From positions 1-20,873 of IMG/VR virus record IMGVR_UViG_3300028392_000337: 20,873 nucleotides of DNA; one strand, given 5' to 3'. Of the stretch, positions 1,895 to 10,529 are shown piece by piece. The position numbers and the translations under genes are program-made. This DNA is from a virus. The notes under the pieces are model-generated. The model saw nothing but the letters and a program-made list of their open reading frames with translations, did no database searches and was not told where the DNA came from. Position 1 is the stretch's first letter. Every line of letters begins with the position of its first letter.

Positions 1895-4057
1895 TCAGGC
1901 CAATTTTGCGTCGATTGCGAACGGATGTGAGGGGTCATAATGCTGTTTTGTGGAGGTATTGCCTACCTGTTTTGCCACAATTTTGCCAGCGTCGACGACG
2001 TACTTATATGCCTTTTCACGGTACTCGGTACTCTTTCCCAGCCTCTTCTTAAGGTCGCCAGTGGTGATTCCTGGGTTCAGTTGAACTATCTCAACAATCT
2101 GGGTCATGATGTTCTCGATGGTCTGGTCTGTCCTTGTGATGGCCTTCTCAACGGTCAGGTGACGGCTGTGCTGGTCGTAACTGAGGACGTGCTGTTCCAT
2201 GTCCACATCTCGCCCGTGAGCCTTCAGGAAGCGTTGTCCTTCGTCATTTCGGGTAAGTAGCCACCTGACATCTGCCCAGTCGTCGAATCGGGATGCACCT
2301 CTGGCTCGTTCGATGCCTGATTCTGACGCTCGACCGGTGTGTGCTGCGACAATGAGGTTGTCGACTCCTGCCTCGTACTTGATAACGTCTAGCGTATCTA
2401 AGAATGTTCCCATGTCGCTGTTGCTGTTCTCGTCACCTGATCCGACGAAGGCTCGGGCTAGTGGGTCGACTATCCATGTCTGAGCGTTGAAGCCTTTGAG
2501 GATGTCAATGACTCGTTCTTGCACGAAGTCACTTGTCATGGGCATCCGTAAGCCTCGCAGGTGGACTAGCTTGACTCGGTCGGTGTTGATGATTCCGACT
2601 TCTCGCATCCACTGGCGGTATTGCCTAGGCTCAACCTCATAGTTGAAGATGACCACATTCCCGTCATGATCGTTGACCCCGTACTTGCCCAAGAATGGGT
2701 GGTCGTCAACTAACGCCTTGACCACATTGTTGATGAGTGTGGTCTTGCCTGACTTGTATTCGGCGGTCAGGGTGATGTTGCCACCGGTCGGGAACACTTC
2801 GTTGATGACATACTTGGCTTCCTCGTCTGGTTGTTCTAGTTCGATGGTGAGGTTGTCAAAGATGTCTGGCAGTTTGAACTTGGCGAGGTTGTCTTCATCT
2901 CGTAGGTGTTCCTTGGCTTGCTTGCGTATCCGCTGGCTCTGGATTTCAGCTGCGAGCATCAGGTCATAGCCTCGGTTGTCACTCTCAATGACTTCACCTG
3001 TGTCTGGGTCGACGTTTGTGGGCATCTGGAACGCTGGCAGGGAATAATCTGGAACAACGGCAATGCTTCCATATCCTTGACCCCTGAGCGCCTTGGTGGA
3101 CTGTTTGAAGGCATCTTCTGATAGTGAACCGAAGGTGAACAGCGTGAACACAGCCCACTTTGAATAGGGCTTCTCTTGCTCGAACTGGGTTGAGGTGCTG
3201 AACACATAAAGGTTGTCAGATTCGGTGCGACCGGTCGTGGCGCTAATGCCGTGATCCTTGCCCGGTCTAGTCCATTGGGTTTCACCTGAGCGCATGGTCA
3301 TGATTTTCTTCCAGCCAGCAGGAATGAGCAGTTCATCCCAAGTGGTTCGGGCGTTGTAGTCATCACCTGGGCTGAGGTTGCCATCTGTCACCTTGGTGGT
3401 GATGGATCGCACGATTTCTTCTTGAACTGGCATCTCATCAAAGAGCATGAAGAGCAGGTGCAACTCTTGGCGCTCGGCTTCAGTGAACGTCACAATGTCT
3501 TTCGGGGTCTTACCTTCAAGCCTGACCCACGGCTTGCCTGATGGGTGGACTGTGCCACCTGACGGGGCGACGATGACGAACCCACCTTCGCCTCGGGTTT
3601 CAATCCAGCATTCGGGGTTGTCGTTCGCACCTGGTCGTTGGGCAAGTTTGGTGTTGCCTGGCACTGTCCCGTCGATACGGTAGAGCCAATGAATGCCGCC
3701 TGATGGGGTCATCTCAATGTAAGTGGATTGCAGCTTGTCCCAGATGTCGCCAATCTCGGCCTTGTGGGCAAGTTCTCGGGCCTCATCAAGGATTCCAGCG
3801 GCGACTGCTCTGCCTTCGAGTTCGAGCATTTCAAGGTTGCCACTGACAGCGCCTGTGATGATGCCAAACCCTTGAGCGGTTGTTGCCCATGTGACCAGTT
3901 GTTCTGGCGTTGTCATGTCGGTCTGTGCCTGTTTCCATGAACCTGCTGGTGCTTTCGAGCCGTCTTCTCGAACTGGCACGACGTTGACACCTGCGAGCAG
4001 GAACTCTAGGGCGCTGTGTAGTGGTGAGGTTGTCGGTTGTGGGTCGGGGTTGTTCAC
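1895..4057 (-). CDS. Bifunctional primase-polymerase / RepA-like helicase (720 aa)
   Basis: Two domains. The N-terminal primase-polymerase domain (about 12-200) has E79-x-E81 in NLEMLELEG as the likely metal-binding pair, PSGGIHWLYR with H123, and ETRGEGGFVIVAPS, matching the three motifs of archaeo-eukaryotic-type prim-pol proteins. The C-terminal RecA-fold ATPase (about 415-640) has Walker A AEYKSGKTT (432-440), Walker B TWIVD (D531), AAHTGR (H573) and RARGAS (585-590), as in RepA/AAA_25 helicases. A small winged-helix-like tail follows (about 650-700). It would synthesise primers and unwind the phage DNA. GTG at 4057 is chosen because it overlaps the upstream stop as GTGA; a GTG ten codons earlier has no ribosome site. 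No phage DNA polymerase is visible, so host polymerase is probably used. Confidence 0.93.
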   Translation of the reverse strand: MNNPDPQPTTSPLHSALEFLLAGVNVVPVREDGSKAPAGSWKQAQTDMTTPEQLVTWATTAQGFGIITGAVSGNLEMLELEGRAVAAGILDEARELAHKAEIGDIWDKLQSTYIEMTPSGGIHWLYRIDGTVPGNTKLAQRPGANDNPECWIETRGEGGFVIVAPSGGTVHPSGKPWVRLEGKTPKDIVTFTEAERQELHLLFMLFDEMPVQEEIVRSITTKVTDGNLSPGDDYNARTTWDELLIPAGWKKIMTMRSGETQWTRPGKDHGISATTGRTESDNLYVFSTSTQFEQEKPYSKWAVFTLFTFGSLSEDAFKQSTKALRGQGYGSIAVVPDYSLPAFQMPTNVDPDTGEVIESDNRGYDLMLAAEIQSQRIRKQAKEHLRDEDNLAKFKLPDIFDNLTIELEQPDEEAKYVINEVFPTGGNITLTAEYKSGKTTLINNVVKALVDDHPFLGKYGVNDHDGNVVIFNYEVEPRQYRQWMREVGIINTDRVKLVHLRGLRMPMTSDFVQERVIDILKGFNAQTWIVDPLARAFVGSGDENSNSDMGTFLDTLDVIKYEAGVDNLIVAAHTGRASESGIERARGASRFDDWADVRWLLTRNDEGQRFLKAHGRDVDMEQHVLSYDQHSRHLTVEKAITRTDQTIENIMTQIVEIVQLNPGITTGDLKKRLGKSTEYREKAYKYVVDAGKIVAKQVGNTSTKQHYDPSHPFAIDAKLA

Positions 4058-4362
4058 GCCAGAATCTTTGCCGAGTTGCAGGGCCACATCACGAGGTTGC
4101 CGTACTGGTCACGACATTCGCCACAGACTATTCCGAGTGAACTCTTGTGTGCTTGATGCAACTTTTGTAGGCGACTAATCTTCAGCGCTCTGGTCACCTC
4201 GTCGAATGTCTCTTTCTTTCGCAGGTCAGCATTGTCCTCTGCCATCTGAGCCAGAATTGCCCGTCGCATTGCCCGAACACTTTCGAGCGCGGTGTCGACT
4301 TCTTGGGTGGCTTTGGCGAGGCTCGCCTGAACTCGGTCGTGAATGTTGGTGTTCTCGCACAT
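4054..4362 (-). CDS. Coiled-coil protein with C-terminal zinc knuckle (102 aa)
   Basis: Start ATG at 4362 with GAGGA upstream. The first 70 residues are predicted as long charged helices (ATQEVDTALESVRAMRRAIL). The C-terminus carries CGECRDQYGN and WPC, a CxxC plus later cysteine pattern that recurs in small actinobacteriophage proteins of unknown function and probably binds zinc. It ends in a GTGA overlap with the primase-helicase gene, so translation of the replication protein is probably coupled to it. A role as a replication accessory is plausible from position only. Confidence 0.75.
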   Translation of the reverse strand: MCENTNIHDRVQASLAKATQEVDTALESVRAMRRAILAQMAEDNADLRKKETFDEVTRALKISRLQKLHQAHKSSLGIVCGECRDQYGNLVMWPCNSAKILA

Positions 4363-4688: not shown

Positions 4689-4705
4689 GGTTTGTCCTTT
4701 GATAG

Positions 4706-4752
4706 TTGAAAGGCTCGGCGCGACCTTCCCCTGCCGACACCGAGCCTTTCAA
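4706..4752 (-). terminator. Strong intergenic hairpin (13-bp perfect stem)
   Basis: TTGAAAGGCTCGG (4706-4718) and CCGAGCCTTTCAA (4740-4752) are perfect inverted copies around a 21-base loop. It follows the ssDNA-binding candidate by 10 bases and precedes the next ribosome site. No T-run follows on the minus strand. Actinobacterial terminators often lack one, so it may be a terminator, a partial attenuator or an RNA-processing hairpin. Confidence 0.7.
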
Positions 4753-4762
4753 GTTGTTGGTG

Positions 4763-5275: not shown

Positions 5276-5470
5276 CTAGTTGGTGAGATTATCGTCGGTG
5301 TGCTTGTCGTGCGGATCACCGAGAACATCCCAAGGGTCGAACGTGAGATAACTCTGACGAGCATCTTCATCGGCGCTGAATCTTCCGAGCGCCTGAAAGA
5401 ACAGGGCAGCGCTGAAACCTGTCAGCAAGCCCACTGACCCTGCAACAATAACCGTGAGCAGTGTTTTCAC
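5276..5470 (-). CDS. Small membrane protein (64 aa)
   Basis: GTG at 5470 is chosen because AGGAGG lies exactly six bases upstream and GTGA overlaps the stop of the nuclease gene; an ATG six codons earlier has no such site. Seen: one N-terminal hydrophobic segment (LLTVIVAGSVGLLTGFSAAL, about 4-23) followed by an acidic soluble tail rich in Asp (DEDARQ, DPWDVLGDPHD). It would sit in the host membrane with the tail in the cytoplasm or outside. No family recognised. Translation is coupled to the Cas4-like nuclease. Confidence 0.7.
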   Translation of the reverse strand: MKTLLTVIVAGSVGLLTGFSAALFFQALGRFSADEDARQSYLTFDPWDVLGDPHDKHTDDNLTN

Positions 5471-6216
5471 TTTGAGCCTCCTGGGCATCCGATAGCGAGG
5501 TTGTCTGACCCTGGCATGAACCAAGGACAGAAGGTGCAATTCCGTGAGGTTGAGGCTGGCACGAGTTCCCAGCGCTCAGGATGTTCTTCAGGGTCAAGCA
5601 TAGCCAGCAACTCAACGGTTGAGTCTAGGCGCAGCATTGCCTCGATTGCCACATCCTTGTCGTAGTCGCCGACCCAAGTGTGCATTCCGGTCAGCATTCC
5701 CCCGAGTGGGTAGAACGCCAGCGCAATCTTCTTGACCTCGTATCCTTGCTGTTCCAACCCGTAGCCGTAGACATTTAACTGGATCACTTGCTGTTCAGTT
5801 GGGCCGTCAGCCTTTCGGGTTTTCATGCTGGTCGCGCCGACACATTTGTGGTCGATGACTGTTCCAGTCTTTCGGTCGAACAGGTCAAGTGTTCCTGACA
5901 GTCCAGGTCGAGCCTCGACTCGATGTTCCACAAGCCAGTCAGCGTCACCGTTGGCAGCTTCGAACGCCTCAGCCAACCACGCATGAATCGCTGTTCCACT
6001 GATGCTCGGCCAAGGGTCGGAGTAGTCATTGACTTTGGCAACTTGCACCATCTTGTAAGCCAACTTCCGCAGACACGGGTCACCGATTTCCGACGGCCCA
6101 ATGTTGACCACTTTAGATCGTGGACTGTTCGCCGACTTGGCACGAATCACATTGGTGATGATGTCCTTGAGTGCCTGTTCAGGTGTCACTGGCGAGGCAA
6201 AGGTGATGGCGCTCAT
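5467..6216 (-). CDS. Cas4/RecB-like PD-(D/E)XK exonuclease with Fe-S cysteines (249 aa)
   Basis: Seen: IGPSEIGDPCLRKL with C48, H78 in GTAIHAWL, D111 in GTLDLFD, D122-H-K124 in VIDHKC, and Q146-to-Y150 in QLNVY. These are the RecB-nuclease motifs including the QxxxY helix. C48 together with C227, C230 and C244 (NCTFC...GC) gives the four-cysteine pattern that holds a 4Fe-4S cluster in Cas4 and AddB nucleases. It should degrade DNA ends to leave single-stranded tails for recombination. Phage Cas4-like proteins are known in the absence of CRISPR, and no CRISPR array or other Cas gene is present. It shares TGATG with the upstream coiled-coil gene and GTGA with the membrane protein after it. Confidence 0.9.
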   Translation of the reverse strand: MSAITFASPVTPEQALKDIITNVIRAKSANSPRSKVVNIGPSEIGDPCLRKLAYKMVQVAKVNDYSDPWPSISGTAIHAWLAEAFEAANGDADWLVEHRVEARPGLSGTLDLFDRKTGTVIDHKCVGATSMKTRKADGPTEQQVIQLNVYGYGLEQQGYEVKKIALAFYPLGGMLTGMHTWVGDYDKDVAIEAMLRLDSTVELLAMLDPEEHPERWELVPASTSRNCTFCPWFMPGSDNLAIGCPGGSK

Positions 6217-6539
6217 CAGTAGGTCTCATTCCCCGTCAGGATAGTGAACCGTCGAGTGAGTGAACGCTTGGTCACTACATCGAGCGCCTGTTGTGGCAGG
6301 ATTTCGCGCAACTTCTTCACGTCAATGCGCTCGGATTCCACAACTGCCCAACGGACAACAGGCTGACCATTCACAGTGCCAATCTCATGAGCGCCAAGTG
6401 CTGCCTCAATGTGGCTTCGTGCGATGTCAATCTGTTCGGCAATCTGTGCAGCCTCTAACTTGAGGCGCTTGTATTCGTCAACCCAGCGAGCAATCTCAGG
6501 GTCAAAGTCAATTTCGATGTTGTTGATTTCGACGCTCAC
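6216..6539 (-). CDS. Exonuclease-associated coiled-coil protein (107 aa)
   Basis: The N-terminal half is a charged helical coiled coil (ARWVDEYKRLKLEAAQIAEQ, about 17-36, continuing to about 48). The C-terminal half has RWAVVESERIDVKKLREILP and then TKRSLTRRFTI. A short coiled coil followed by an 'R-x-D-x-x-x-L ... P ... S-x-x-R-R-F' ending is typical of small proteins encoded directly beside phage YqaJ- or RecB-like exonucleases, as here. It probably assists or anchors the nuclease (inference). ATG overlaps the previous stop as ATGA. Confidence 0.65.
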   Translation of the reverse strand: MSVEINNIEIDFDPEIARWVDEYKRLKLEAAQIAEQIDIARSHIEAALGAHEIGTVNGQPVVRWAVVESERIDVKKLREILPQQALDVVTKRSLTRRFTILTGNETY

Positions 6540-6721
6540 AGTTCGATCCCCATCTCTCGGGCAAGACCTGCACCGATAAGCGCACCGGTCTGATTGTCGG
6601 CAGTGATGTCAGCCATCAACTTCTCAGCTGCAATCTTCAGGTTGCGAAGGGTTACAAAATGGCCGACCTTGTAAGCGGTGAAAGAGGTGACCACGATGGT
6701 CAGCCAGAATAACGGGTTCAT
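6536..6721 (-). CDS. Small single-span membrane protein (61 aa)
   Basis: ATG at 6721 overlaps the stop of the second WhiB gene as ATGA. One membrane segment near the N-terminus (MNPLFWLTIVVTSFTAYKVG), followed by a helical tail (LRNLKIAAEKLMADITAD). A tandem Shine-Dalgarno-like repeat (AAGGACAAGGACAAG) sits just before the start, inside the WhiB reading frame. A longer in-frame version starting 34 codons earlier would overlap WhiB coding sequence and is rejected. Function unknown. Confidence 0.65.
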   Translation of the reverse strand: MNPLFWLTIVVTSFTAYKVGHFVTLRNLKIAAEKLMADITADNQTGALIGAGLAREMGIEL

Positions 6722-7134
6722 TTCTTGTCCTTGTCCTTGGTTGTTTGTGTTCCTTGGTTCTTCCACTTGGCGAATGAGGCTGGCAGAATGCCAACCTCGT
6801 CGCAAGCGTCTTGCAATGACCAACCCATTTCTATGAGTCGAATCACTTCTTTACTGTTGCCACGCCTGACTCTACTTCTGTGAGCCGACATTTTCCGACG
6901 GTCTTCGGGCGACACTCCGCCGAAGTATCCGTTGAAATCTTTGTTGCTGAGTGCCAGGTCAAGGCATTCCTGACGAACTGGGCAGTCCTTGCAGATGGCT
7001 TGAATCATCGGCTCTGACGCTTCGACATCTTCGAGTGAGGTCGGGAAGAACAGGTCAGGAAAGATGGTGTTGGCACAGTTGGCGGTTTCCCAGCGTTGAG
7101 CATTGCCGAATGCGAAGTTGAAGTTGGTCTTCAT
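6718..7134 (-). CDS. WhiB-family regulator with C-terminal helix-turn-helix (138 aa)
   Basis: Four conserved cysteines C20, C48, C51 and C57 (ICKDCPVRQEC) hold the 4Fe-4S cluster, followed by the WhiB turn GYFGG (69-73) and the basic SPEDRRK. A C-terminal extension at about 95-125 (EVIRLIEMGWSLQDACDEVG) looks like a second helix-turn-helix, which most host WhiB proteins lack. WhiB proteins bind the principal sigma factor and tune transcription in response to redox or nitric oxide; phage copies can displace host WhiB proteins. Its last residues, KDKDKK, are encoded by the Shine-Dalgarno-like repeats of the next gene. ATGA overlap with the resolvase gene. Confidence 0.92.
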   Translation of the reverse strand: MKTNFNFAFGNAQRWETANCANTIFPDLFFPTSLEDVEASEPMIQAICKDCPVRQECLDLALSNKDFNGYFGGVSPEDRRKMSAHRSRVRRGNSKEVIRLIEMGWSLQDACDEVGILPASFAKWKNQGTQTTKDKDKK

Positions 7135-7478
7135 TTCCCTGTACCTGACCTGTCAAGCAAGTCCACAGCTTGTTCCAGTGGCATGATTGCCCACCAGTTG
7201 CCAGTGTTAGTTGATCCAACCCCGACAGGTTTCACCACAAGGATTCCGACCTGTGCCTTCGAGTTGACTTTCTCAGCTGCCAACTCTTTGAGCCATGCAG
7301 GGATGGAGTAAGTCTTGTGAGCCTTCACCTCGATGCACACACTTGGCAGACCGGCAACGTCACCTTTGTCATTGACACCTGCCAGCGCCCTGCGCTCGGC
7401 GTGAACGTAGCCACGAGCGATGAGGTAGTTGACAACAGCAGTCTCGGCTGATGTGCCTTTGGCCTTGTTCTTGCTCAT
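7131..7478 (-). CDS. Hjc-like Holliday junction resolvase / PD-(D/E)XK nuclease (115 aa)
   Basis: Catalytic pattern: E12 in GTSAETAVVNYL, D40 in GDVAGLP, and E50-V-K52 in IEVK, the layout of archaeal Hjc-type resolvases and related small actinobacteriophage nucleases. Length fits the family. It would cut branched recombination or replication intermediates before packaging. ATG at 7478 is chosen because it overlaps the stop of the micro zinc-ribbon gene as ATGA; a longer in-frame version begins inside that gene. It lies between two WhiB genes in a fully overlapping gene chain. Confidence 0.85.
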   Translation of the reverse strand: MSKNKAKGTSAETAVVNYLIARGYVHAERRALAGVNDKGDVAGLPSVCIEVKAHKTYSIPAWLKELAAEKVNSKAQVGILVVKPVGVGSTNTGNWWAIMPLEQAVDLLDRSGTGK

Positions 7479-7573
7479 CGGGTGAAGCCTGAGCATCGAG
7501 GACAGAGCCAAATCTTTGCCTTCTCGTACCACTGAAGTTCTCGGCAGCAGTCACCACATAACGGGTTGTTCAT
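7475..7573 (-). CDS. Micro zinc-ribbon protein (32 aa)
   Basis: Begins MNNPLCGDCCRELQ and ends LCPRCSGFTR, giving CxxC (C6, C9, with C10 adjacent) and CxxC (C24, C27), a complete minimal Cys4 zinc ribbon. Start and stop each overlap their neighbours as ATGA (WhiB upstream, resolvase downstream), filling the gap exactly. That fit plus the cysteine pairs is strong evidence of a real gene despite its size. It could bridge protein partners or bind nucleic acid; no function is known to me. Confidence 0.8.
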   Translation of the reverse strand: MNNPLCGDCCRELQWYEKAKIWLCPRCSGFTR

Positions 7574-7923
7574 GCGACTTGCTCCTGTTCGGCTAAGCGC
7601 TTTGCTCGACGTTTGCGAGCGTCGATGGCGTATTGAGTCTGACTCTTCATCGCCTCGGTCGTGTATTGGGTCTGAATCTGAACTGCCTTGATGCCCAAAT
7701 CTCGGCGCAACTTTTGACGGGTGACAACTCCTGTCCCTGCCCAGACACCGTCAACCTCGACGTGCAAGGCGTAGGTGAGGCAAGCCTTCACCACCGGACA
7801 ATCGGCACACATCTTCTTGATGGTCTGGCAGGTGTTCACGCCAGTTTCAGGAAAGAACAGTTCGGTGTCTATGCCTACGCACGAACCTTCTGACAGGTCT
7901 GGAAACTCGTATGGATCACTCAT
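7570..7923 (-). CDS. WhiB-family transcriptional regulator (117 aa)
   Basis: C15, C39, C42 and C48 (MCADCPVVKAC) match the WhiB 4Fe-4S pattern; C32 is an extra cysteine. GVWAGT (59-64) is the G-[IV]-W-G-G turn with one change, followed by a basic tail (ARKRRAKRL). The segment QTQYTTEA is nearly repeated as QTQYAIDA (84-91 and 95-102), a short internal duplication before the basic tail. Like other WhiB-like proteins it should act with the host sigma factor, here probably shifting transcription to phage genes. It is preceded by a 10-bp perfect inverted repeat at 7943-7985. Confidence 0.93.
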   Translation of the reverse strand: MSDPYEFPDLSEGSCVGIDTELFFPETGVNTCQTIKKMCADCPVVKACLTYALHVEVDGVWAGTGVVTRQKLRRDLGIKAVQIQTQYTTEAMKSQTQYAIDARKRRAKRLAEQEQVA

Positions 7924-8018
7924 GCGACACCGCCCAAAGGTAGGTGGCGCTCAACCTCGTAGGACAAGTGCAAGGGAGCGCCACCAGTGTGAGCGTTCGA
8001 ACTCTCAAGTCCAATCAT
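7920..8018 (-). CDS. Possible 32-aa protein upstream of WhiB
   Basis: ATG at 8018 opens a frame beginning MIGLESSNAHTGG and ending LPLGGVA, whose TGA overlaps the WhiB ATG. The overlap is the pattern used throughout this operon, but there is no ribosome site, no recognised motif, and a 10-bp inverted repeat runs through the frame. It may equally be an untranslated leader. Confidence 0.35.
   Translation of the reverse strand: MIGLESSNAHTGGAPLHLSYEVERHLPLGGVA
7943..7985 (-). promoter_or_regulatory. Perfect 10-bp inverted repeat upstream of WhiB
   Basis: GGTGGCGCTC (7943-7952) and GAGCGCCACC (7976-7985) are exact inverted copies around 23 bases. The proximal arm ends 20 bases before the WhiB ATG. 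No T-run follows. It could be an RNA hairpin controlling WhiB translation or a protein-binding site for WhiB autoregulation. Confidence 0.5.
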
Positions 8019-8035
8019 AGCGAAATAAGGCGACA

Positions 8036-8191
8036 TCACTTCTCGCCCTGCAATGCACGTTCCAAGCGTTCGGTGATGTATTCCAGTGCAACAGCACCGT
8101 CGGGTGAGATTCGCAGGTTGTGCTTGAGTTCACGAAGCACGTCATTGACCTGCAACAACTTCTCTAACATGGTGACAGTTTCGGTTGTCAT
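8036..8191 (-). CDS. Small helical protein (51 aa)
   Basis: Starts at ATG 8191, overlapping the upstream stop as TAATG. Predicted all-helical: METVT-type start (MTTETVTMLEKLLQVNDVLR), then LKHNLRISPDGAVALEYITE and an RLERALQ helix. No cysteine, no membrane segment, no family recognised. Tight coupling with the genes upstream supports translation. Confidence 0.6.
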   Translation of the reverse strand: MTTETVTMLEKLLQVNDVLRELKHNLRISPDGAVALEYITERLERALQGEK

Positions 8192-8704: not shown

Positions 8705-8986
8705 TCACAGTCGGTCTGCGTTGACCAGTTCCCCTGCAATAGCCAAGTACGCTGCACCGTCAATGTATGAGTCCATGTTATCTGGGTTTCCCGATAGACG
8801 TGCAAGTTTCAACCCTGCCATGCAGAGTGCCACTTGGAAAGGTTCGACCCTGTAGCCAAGGATCACTGACCAGATTCGGGCGATGTTGTCGTGGTTGATG
8901 TACGGCTCGCCATGCTGAAGGTTGCGGTCGTTAGTTGTCAGCGCTGTTGCCTGGTCGAGGATGTCCTTGCGGTTGAGGTCTTTCAT
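8705..8986 (-). CDS. DUF6378-like phage protein (93 aa)
   Basis: Short all-helical protein: RKDILDQATALTTNDRNLQH, then ARIWSVILG, EPFQVALCMAGLKLARLSGN and DNMDSYIDGAAYLAIAGEL. The order 'DR-x-x-x-x-G, W-S, V-A-L-x-M-x-x-L-K-x-A-R, P-x-x-x-D-S-x-x-D-x-A-x-Y' matches the family often called DUF6378 in phages, which has a helical fold reminiscent of MazG-like nucleotide pyrophosphohydrolases; its reaction is not established. ATG overlaps the epimerase stop as ATGA. Last gene before the terminator candidate. Confidence 0.75.
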   Translation of the reverse strand: MKDLNRKDILDQATALTTNDRNLQHGEPYINHDNIARIWSVILGYRVEPFQVALCMAGLKLARLSGNPDNMDSYIDGAAYLAIAGELVNADRL

Positions 8987-9852
8987 CTTTGCTCCCCTAA
9001 TGCCATCAGGATTCCCTGTTCCAAACTAATCTTCGGCTCATAGTAACTGAGCATGAACTCAAGATTGCCAACCCGATACTGAACCCCGACAGGCTCGGCG
9101 GTGAGGTGTTCGATTGGCGCATGATAGCCAGAAGCCAGCATGACCAGTTCGGCCAGTTGGTTGAATGAGGTTGCTCGACCGCTGCACAAGTTTGACACCT
9201 CGATGCCAGCGTCAACTCCAGCCATCACTGCACCCACAATGTCGTCGATGTGAATGAAGTCCCGAACTTGCTTCCCGTCACCCCACACTTGAAATGGTGT
9301 CTGGCGGTTCAGTCCTCGCTCGATGAACTTCGGGAACGGATAGTCCAAGTCTTGATCCGCGCCATAACCTGAGAACGGTCGGAACACCGACACCTTCAAG
9401 CCTTGTTCCCTGGCATGACTTGCCAGCATCTCGCCGGTCAACTTTGCCCAACCATAGGTGAGGTCAGGATTCTGGATGTTGCTCAAGTCAATGTCGGTTT
9501 CCTCAAGTTGAACTTGCCAACCCAATTCTTGCAATACGACCGGATAGGCGGCAGAGCTGCTGAAGTAGACAATGCGTTCAGGTTTCGTGCGTAAAGCCCA
9601 GCCGAACATTTCAGCGTCAATGGACAGGTCAACCGCTAGCGCCAGCGGTGAGCCTTCAATCATTCGTCGACCACCAACAACAGCCGCCAAGTGAATGACT
9701 AGGTCGAACTTGGTGTTGTCGGTTCGAAAGAAGTCGCGAGCATCTACTCCGTTGACAATGTCCACGCCAACAATGACATGATTACTTGAAGCGAAGTGTC
9801 GGTGAAATGCTCGACCTACGAAGCCAGCGTCACCTGTGATGAGTATTTTCAC
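8983..9852 (-). CDS. NAD-dependent nucleotide-sugar epimerase/dehydratase (289 aa)
   Basis: Extended short-chain dehydrogenase. Seen: GDAGFVG (G7, G10, G13) for NAD binding, D31 after the second strand, HLAAVVGG, YFSSSAAYP with the catalytic Ser/Thr region near 98-100, and Y133-x-x-x-K137 (YGWAK). Later FRPFSGYG and DFIHIDDI are substrate-side motifs of GalE/dTDP-glucose dehydratase relatives. It would convert a nucleotide-linked sugar in the cytoplasm; the exact sugar cannot be read. The ATGA overlap with a glycosyltransferase upstream suggests that enzyme uses its product. Length is slightly short for the family (usually 300-340). Confidence 0.9.
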   Translation of the reverse strand: MKILITGDAGFVGRAFHRHFASSNHVIVGVDIVNGVDARDFFRTDNTKFDLVIHLAAVVGGRRMIEGSPLALAVDLSIDAEMFGWALRTKPERIVYFSSSAAYPVVLQELGWQVQLEETDIDLSNIQNPDLTYGWAKLTGEMLASHAREQGLKVSVFRPFSGYGADQDLDYPFPKFIERGLNRQTPFQVWGDGKQVRDFIHIDDIVGAVMAGVDAGIEVSNLCSGRATSFNQLAELVMLASGYHAPIEHLTAEPVGVQYRVGNLEFMLSYYEPKISLEQGILMALGEQR

Positions 9853-10529
9853 GCGCTAAGTCTTTCCACTAGCTGATGGTAATTGTCGCTTGCAATGTAG
9901 GTGTTGAACGCTTGCAGGTCTGCGCTGTAGAACTCGCTTGAGTTTGTTTCATGATAAGAATCATCCCACTCACTCTTGCCGATTACTGGGTGCAGATGCT
10001 CGATGACAGTTTCGGGCAGGTATCGGATGGCGTTCAAGTCTTGACCTAGTCGAAGCCAGAAGTTGTCCAGATACAAATGAGCGAAGCAGTCAGGAATCAT
10101 GCCGTTCAGTTCTTCCACTATGCTTCTCGTCATCCCGACGGCTGTTGGCAGTCCTTCCCCATGAAACAAGTCGTCACCATAGACAAGCCCTGTGACAAGG
10201 TTGTCAAGGTTTGTGCGCCACACTTTGTCCCACTGCAAGGTTCGAGGTCGATGGTCATCACCAACGAAGATGAAATACTCCCAGCGCTCATCTGTGACCA
10301 GTTGCCTTGCAGCGTTGTTGAGTGGGTCGGCCATGCCTTTGCGACCACGTTCGAAGATCAGCACCTCGGTGAAGTTATTTTCGAGCCACAGGTATTGCTC
10401 AAGTGTTTCGTCATCCTCGTCGACTACAACAAACAGACGTGACATTGTTTCGGTGTCAATGAGTGACTGTTGCAACTCTTTGATGTTGTGCGGTCGATGT
10501 CGACTTGGCACGATGATTGCGGTGTTCAT
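9849..10529 (-). CDS. Family 2-like glycosyltransferase (226 aa)
   Basis: GT-A type fold: first strand AIIVPSRHRPHNIKEL, FVVVDEDD, then GMADPLNNAARQL and VGDDHRPRT, where D91-D92-H93 is the metal and nucleotide-sugar binding motif. LYLDNFWLR (D155) is a candidate catalytic aspartate and VIEHLHP is a frequent late motif of the class. No membrane segment, so it acts on soluble or DNA/virion targets. It sits in an overlapping run with a sugar epimerase and a metallophosphoesterase. Acceptor unknown: virion protein, phage DNA base or host surface are all possible. Confidence 0.85.
   Translation of the reverse strand: MNTAIIVPSRHRPHNIKELQQSLIDTETMSRLFVVVDEDDETLEQYLWLENNFTEVLIFERGRKGMADPLNNAARQLVTDERWEYFIFVGDDHRPRTLQWDKVWRTNLDNLVTGLVYGDDLFHGEGLPTAVGMTRSIVEELNGMIPDCFAHLYLDNFWLRLGQDLNAIRYLPETVIEHLHPVIGKSEWDDSYHETNSSEFYSADLQAFNTYIASDNYHQLVERLSA

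Follow-up and report, generated by a model that had tools for sequence, protein, structure and literature searches.

The 20,873-base DNA of IMG/VR virus record IMGVR_UViG_3300028392_000337 (hereafter the window) belongs to a tailed phage of actinobacteria. On its minus strand we found an operon that is likely to be an early recombination/replication module carrying two WhiB-type regulators in the same transcription unit. The operon encodes a Cas4/RecB-type exonuclease, an Hjc-type nuclease and a small protein, here called CC, that is homologous to the C-terminal domain of a different exonuclease family, YqaJ/RecE. A first-pass annotation had described seven of these genes as a possible redox-linked recombination or takeover module. 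The recombination part of that proposal was upheld by the comparison with related phages, and the redox part is weighed below.

Organisation and conservation of the operon

All seven genes, in the order WhiB1, micro zinc ribbon, Hjc-like, WhiB2, TM1, CC and Cas4-like, were present on the minus strand (Table 1), and the neighbours overlapped as had been noted, by four bases (ATGA four times, GTGA once) or by one base (TGATG, once). An eighth gene, TM2, extends the run and overlaps the Cas4-like gene by GTGA. Overlaps of four bases are routine in phage genomes; the overlapping genes may be co-expressed. When compared with close contigs, the ratios of nonsynonymous to synonymous substitution rates (Ka/Ks) were 0.04-0.42 across the seven genes and TM2, showing that all eight are under purifying selection. 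Because of these ratios and because the order is kept across diverged contigs, the operon is more than a chance arrangement. Moreover, the functional unit reaches past the interval reported originally and includes TM2, p870 and the primase-helicase gene. Scans for sigma-70 promoters and terminators gave no score above those of shuffled sequences.

Related contigs, labelled L003, L007 and so on, were found by scans with Cas4, p870 and Hjc and then annotated with profiles; the label L029 stands for Gordonia phage Jollymon. The first-pass annotation had let its proposal depend on conservation of the gene order in related phages, and such conservation was observed: of the 15 IMG/VR contigs in which Hjc and Cas4 could both be seen, 14 had the order Hjc-WhiB2-(TM1)-CC-Cas4-(TM2)-p870 (p870 if the sequence extended far enough), with Cas4 identities ranging from 96% down to about 52%. 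This count is not a test of independence, since the contigs are related to one another and the module's own proteins served as queries. In 16 IMG/VR contigs WhiB2 came immediately after Hjc with no intervening gap, and the Prim-Pol/helicase gene came after the module in L004, L006, L007, L038, L041, L047 and L049. In the distant group L008-L019, WhiB was located directly after Cas4 in most contigs.

The strongest argument for a recombination module came from a parallel group, L061-L073, which was found with Hjc (47-58% identity). There, a YqaJ exonuclease with a fused CC domain is encoded upstream of Hjc, and WhiB follows Hjc in the contigs with enough downstream sequence. The run in L065 reads YqaJ (Pfam 4.8e-10), single-strand annealing protein (SSAP; phrog_3290, 8e-39), single-stranded DNA-binding protein (SSB; Pfam 1.9e-25), a Cys-rich mini-protein, Hjc, two small open reading frames (ORFs), WhiB and WhiB; a recognised SSAP was found only in this parallel module. 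Because a recognised exonuclease-SSAP-SSB set is situated near the same Hjc and WhiB genes, we read the operon genes as a recombination module. Thus, two exonuclease types have been swapped within an otherwise similar resolvase-WhiB neighbourhood.

CC is a detached C-terminal domain of YqaJ/RecE exonucleases

The earlier description of CC as a coiled-coil partner of the nucleases can now be put on firmer ground than was possible at that time. In addition to PHROG 1956, a family of unknown function, CC matched positions 265-364 of the RecE-like PHROG 434. When a profile of 15 free-standing CC proteins was run with hmmsearch against eight YqaJ exonucleases, taken from IMG/VR contigs and from phages of Arthrobacter, Gordonia and Klebsiella, it matched their last ~95 residues (~208-331; E 1e-12 to 5e-23), with no match in the first 210 residues of these proteins and none in 200 shuffled C-termini. 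Likewise, hhalign gave a probability of 99.4% (E 2.5e-21) for CC against the YqaJ C-termini and 0.1% against the N-termini, and the reverse search with a YqaJ protein as the query recovered the free CC genes of Gordonia phages. These comparisons establish homology between CC and the C-terminal domain of the YqaJ/RecE exonucleases.

The free CC gene lay upstream of a Cas4-type exonuclease gene, within about 3 kb, in 10 of the 10 isolate phages examined (Reyja, Vagabond, Fionnbharth, Boilgate, Bock, Guillsminger, Milly, GMA4, Madraxi and TPA4), several of which are mutually related (cluster K). As the domain is fused in YqaJ and free near Cas4, one exonuclease type has it in cis and the other nearby in trans. 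This makes CC a candidate accessory subunit of the Cas4-like exonuclease, with which it may form a complex. The phrog_1956 family, which is widespread in actinophages and labelled "hypothetical protein" near Cas4 exonucleases, thereby gains a testable function: its members would serve the end-resection nuclease of the phage as an accessory domain provided in trans.

Two apparent fusions were set aside. Jollymon gp82 (L029 3140-4153), annotated as a Cas4 exonuclease and carrying a fused CC domain, matched Pfam YqaJ (4.5e-23) and is therefore not a direct Cas4-CC fusion; its label is probably a misannotation. In the 475-aa Cas4 ORF of L041 only the C-terminal part matched anything, and the remainder overlaps a methyltransferase-like frame in GC-rich DNA.

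Nucleases and DNA-handling proteins of the module

The nuclease encoded after CC has homologues in 369 phage records, 342 of which span at least 80% of the protein. The motifs H, GxxD, (D/E)xK and QxxxY were all present, and H78, D111, D122, K124, Q146, Y150, C48 and C230 were invariant among 15 homologues of 28-96% identity. Its Fe-S-type cysteines, one N-terminal and three C-terminal (C48/C227/C230/C244), were found in all five close sequences and were conserved in nearly all of the 15 homologues, the pattern being partly lost in phage Peas.

A Cas4-like phage protein that stimulates the acquisition of host-derived spacers has been described (PMC5704561), and this Campylobacter phage precedent raises the question of whether the operon could be a cassette for host-DNA degradation or counter-defence, its nucleases attacking host DNA or disturbing CRISPR adaptation. 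We consider this very unlikely, given that the protein scored only 17.6 bits with the CRISPR Cas4 model TIGR00372 (cut-off 65), its best PADLOC match was weak (1.6e-06), and no Cas protein was detected among the neighbouring proteins scanned, the neighbours being replication and recombination genes. PADLOC reported no defence system, only weak matches of DrmC to the WhiB2 tail and of mads_8 to the helicase.

The Hjc-like protein carries E12, D40, E50 and K52, invariant in 18 sequences and corresponding to the active-site residues E, D and E-x-K of Hjc. Its structure, like that of p870 below, was predicted from alignment rows taken from IMG/VR only; the model had a mean predicted local distance difference test (pLDDT) score of 82, and its nine best PDB matches were all archaeal Hjc (best E 6.6e-3, probability up to 1.00). 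The predicted fold and active-site layout are thus like those of the archaeal resolvases, whereas by sequence the resemblance does not reach ordinary significance (profile E 0.16). We therefore regard the protein as a probable Holliday-junction resolvase. The earlier suggestion of two nucleases of complementary type, one resecting and one cutting junctions, agrees with these predicted activities.

Downstream, p870 starts 48 bases after TM2, and a p870 homologue also directly follows the exonuclease gene in Arthrobacter phage Peas. Its position relative to the exonuclease-SSAP-SSB set of L065 makes p870 a candidate for handling single-stranded DNA (ssDNA). The AlphaFold2 model (pLDDT 75) has the element order E-E-E-H-E-E, an OB-like topology, and the Foldseek matches in PDB were weak (E 0.07-0.6) but mostly OB-fold proteins (PRD1 SSB P12, PrgE, SSB, RPA). 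Thus, p870 is probably an ssDNA-binding protein, and phrog_870 probably a new family of this kind.

Taken together, these assignments suggest a pathway in which the Cas4/RecB-like nuclease would resect double-stranded ends, helped in trans by CC, p870 would coat or anneal the ssDNA, the Hjc-like enzyme would resolve joint molecules, and the downstream Prim-Pol/helicase would replicate.

Several observations weigh against this reading. The best PDB fold match of p870 (E 0.06) was a ribosomal protein, and its fold matches were weak throughout; by sequence, p870 matched no SSB or SSAP family, only phrog_870/14234 of unknown function, and neither CC nor p870 had a solved relative. In the fifteenth contig, L041, the order is Hjc-Cas4-p870, and neither CC nor WhiB was detected in between; in the L008-L019 group and phage Peas Cas4 is present with no CC detectable nearby. 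A stretch of 207-643 bp parts CC from Cas4 in L007, L036, L059 and L060; in L007 a cytosine DNA methyltransferase-like gene (7348-7995) sits exactly between the two, with the overlaps kept.

Such inserts, which occurred between module members in L003, L007, L036, L047 and L059, would also be expected if the operon were an ordinary mosaic neighbourhood, in which early genes merely share a long transcript and neither CC and Cas4 nor Hjc and WhiB are physical partners; overlap and mosaicism are general traits of early phage operons. However, the order was unchanged over wide divergence, the linkage of CC to Cas4 was without exception in the isolates, the CC domain is fused to another exonuclease, and the Hjc-WhiB linkage recurs beside a different exonuclease. 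A mosaic origin of this kind therefore appears rather improbable, and a recombination/replication module remains our preferred interpretation.

WhiB proteins, cysteine clusters and small proteins

The two WhiB proteins scored 52.4 and 51.6 bits with Pfam Whib (cut-off 23.6), and the alignment showed both the four-Cys cluster site and the glycine-aromatic turn. The cysteine sets, C15/C39/C42/C48 in WhiB1 and C20/C48/C51/C57 in WhiB2, are kept in close relatives. The four-cysteine sets attributed earlier to both WhiB proteins and the Cas4-like nuclease are thus real and conserved, and the zinc ribbon also proved to be as described, a 32-aa protein with CxxC...CxxC. WhiB1 is restricted to the close lineage (Ka/Ks 0.20-0.26). 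Phage WhiB(TM4) is cited as a dominant negative regulator (in PMC8612146), and the WhiB proteins of the operon most likely act, like WhiB(TM4), by setting transcription from phage and/or host promoters. As a separate observation, residues 95-130 in the C-terminal extension of WhiB2 showed a weak helix-turn-helix-like similarity (Pfam HTH 0.014-0.085, below cut-off).

Host WhiB proteins are regulators responsive through Fe-S clusters and nitric oxide (NO). Together with the Fe-S-type cysteine sets in three proteins of the operon, kept in relatives, this could point to a redox-linked switch in which the clusters of the two WhiB proteins and the nuclease sense the oxidative or NO state of the host and link phage recombination or takeover to it. 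At the same time, the Fe-S clusters of Cas4/AddB-type nucleases are regarded as structural, distant relatives lack WhiB1 while the remaining order persists, and the parallel module has YqaJ instead of a Cas4-type nuclease. The last implies that the Fe-S nuclease is not a constant part of the module and argues against a redox circuit as a constant feature. We consequently hold the redox switch to be improbable, and retain the recombination/replication module with WhiB regulators as the better description.

The zinc ribbon matched no family in the Pfam or PHROG searches; its homologues were found in L003-L006, L036 and L057 and, weakly, in L037-L040, with the cysteines kept in close relatives. 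TM1 is conserved in L003-L007, L036, L037 and L040, and TM2 in L003, L004, L006, L007 and L036. The membrane protein proposed among the seven genes is in doubt, the best 19-residue hydropathy mean of TM1 being only 1.26; the additional TM2 (2.04) fits the description.

A conserved hairpin at the operon head

Upstream of WhiB1 we observed an inverted repeat with a 10-bp outer stem, a 2-nt bulge, a 5-bp inner stem and an 11-nt loop containing an invariant CTTGTCC. Its DNA is more conserved than nearby synonymous sites, and the hairpin was present in L003-L007, L036, L057-L060 and others. Two-sided changes were found at 8 of the 15 pairs, and 97.5% of the cells were paired, compared with 35-47% when the alignment was slid. 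In L007 and L059, inverted-repeat scans of relatives brought out a hairpin of identical design, with the 23-nt spacing and the loop heptamer CTTGTCC shared; because these two were noticed through holding inverted repeats, their pairing was selected, but their shared spacing, loop and position were not. A covariance model matched L007, L036, L059 and L060, the last newly added, and did not match L037-L040, L047 or the isolate phages searched; matches in L097 were tape-measure repeats and were discarded. As RNA, the single sequence folded moderately better than shuffles (z -1.9), and the Rfam search gave no match. A small ORF at 7920-8039, whose DNA holds the hairpin, is probably not a gene by its codon pattern (Ka/Ks 0.7-1.1).

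The loop CTTGTCC is complementary to GGACAAG. The motif AAGGACAA, with a GGACAA core, occurred in seven sense-strand and zero antisense copies, against an expectation of 0.57 on each strand, and most copies stand immediately ahead of a start. We hypothesise that the loop pairs with this leader motif. A broader proposal is that an RNA hairpin at the operon head, through its loop CUUGUCC, self-regulates translation, and that the exonuclease consists of two subunits, the Cas4-type protein and the detached YqaJ C-terminal domain; we offer this combination as speculation that has the odds against it. Alternatively, the motif could be no more than a ribosome-binding site, and the inverted repeat at 7943-7985 can equally well be read as a DNA operator. 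Should the hairpin indeed act on the leader motifs, it would give a way into the similar start-associated sequences, likewise with inverted repeats, that have been described without explanation from cluster K and EF phages (PMC3203893, PMC7302621). A second inverted repeat, between p870 and the next gene, is conserved in L004, L006 and L036 and may act as a terminator or as a further regulatory hairpin.

Table 1. Features of the operon and its surroundings in the window. Proteins are listed in gene order; E-values are given after the family matched.
Feature	Position	Strand	Evidence or remarks
Conserved hairpin	7943-7985	minus	19 nt upstream of WhiB1, at operon head
WhiB1, WhiB-family regulator, 117 aa	7570-7923	minus	Pfam Whib 7.9e-14, PHROG 472 8e-17
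Micro zinc ribbon, 32 aa	7475-7573	minus	CxxC...CxxC; homologues in relatives, Ka/Ks 0.04-0.29
Hjc-type PD-(D/E)XK nuclease, probable Holliday-junction resolvase, 115 aa	7131-7478	minus	PHROG 244 7e-25
WhiB2, WhiB-family regulator with C-terminal extension, 138 aa	6718-7134	minus	Pfam Whib 1.4e-13
TM1, small protein (possibly membrane), 61 aa	6536-6721	minus	Weakly hydrophobic N-terminus, conserved C-terminal LARE-x-x-IE motif
CC, free-standing homologue of YqaJ/RecE exonuclease C-terminal domain, 107 aa, GTG start	6216-6539	minus	PHROG 1956 1e-16
Cas4/RecB-type Fe-S PD-(D/E)XK exonuclease, 249 aa	5467-6216	minus	PDDEXK_1 3.7e-06 (above cut-off), PHROG 1674 3e-68
TM2, small membrane protein, 64 aa, GTG start	5276-5470	minus	Hydropathy 2.04, conserved acidic C-terminal tail
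p870, probable OB-fold ssDNA-binding protein, 154 aa	4763-5227	minus	PHROG 870 (unknown function)
Second inverted repeat	4704-4754	minus	13-bp arms, 25-nt loop
Prim-Pol/AAA helicase fusion, 730 aa, downstream replication gene	1895-4087	minus	Pfam Prim-Pol 1e-14, AAA_25 6.6e-21
AAGGACAA leader motif	e.g. 8500, 8493, 6736, 6730, 5237, 4697	minus (sense)	Before several starts

Two further minus-strand loci lie upstream of the module. A DUF6378 protein (8705-8986; Pfam 4.8e-26) is conserved at this place in almost every related contig, the distant group L008-L019 included. The stretch 8983-10529 encodes an NAD-dependent epimerase and a glycosyltransferase-2-like protein weakly similar to TET-associated glycosyltransferases, a pair that suggests DNA or surface sugar modification.

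Comparison with known systems

The first-pass annotation knew of no described system with this combination of genes, which was too strong a statement. The presence of WhiB beside a Cas4-family exonuclease and replication genes has been published for actinophages: in Microbacterium phages of cluster EK, a Cas4-family exonuclease (100%) and primase/helicase genes are found no more than 10 kb from WhiB (PMC8612146). Gordonia phage Reyja, with the order WhiB, CC homologue, gp38 and Cas4 exonuclease, and mycobacteriophage DirkDirk, with resolvase, WhiB and WhiB, provide further counterexamples. The identity of CC and the hairpin were not found in the open-access literature searched, an absence that is no proof of novelty.

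The closeness of WhiB to a Cas4-family exonuclease is shared with both cluster EK and Reyja. In Reyja, WhiB also overlaps the CC homologue, which is annotated only as a hypothetical protein, whereas no Hjc or micro zinc ribbon was seen beside WhiB in the stretch compared. Pairs of YqaJ/RecE with RecT or another SSAP (Arthrobacter phage RedFox gp40-gp41, Klebsiella phage ST512-KPC3phi13.3) resemble the operon in that an exonuclease with the CC domain adjoins an ssDNA-handling protein, in RedFox with a resolvase nearby. They differ in that the operon has a Cas4/RecB-type exonuclease with CC as a separate gene, and its ssDNA-binding candidate is phrog_870 rather than RecT. In cluster K mycobacteriophages (the TM4 group), too, a Cas4-family exonuclease is preceded by a CC homologue, the long early operon includes WhiB and RusA-like genes, and start-associated sequences (SAS) with inverted repeats occur. 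However, CC is parted from Cas4 in that cluster by DnaQ-like and other genes, and its SAS and extended SAS (ESAS) are of different sequence and multi-copy, while the hairpin described here is single-copy. Thus, the WhiB-Cas4 neighbourhoods and the component families are already known, and the operon is best read as a variant, with its exonuclease split, of the kind of recombination/replication module already familiar from actinophages.

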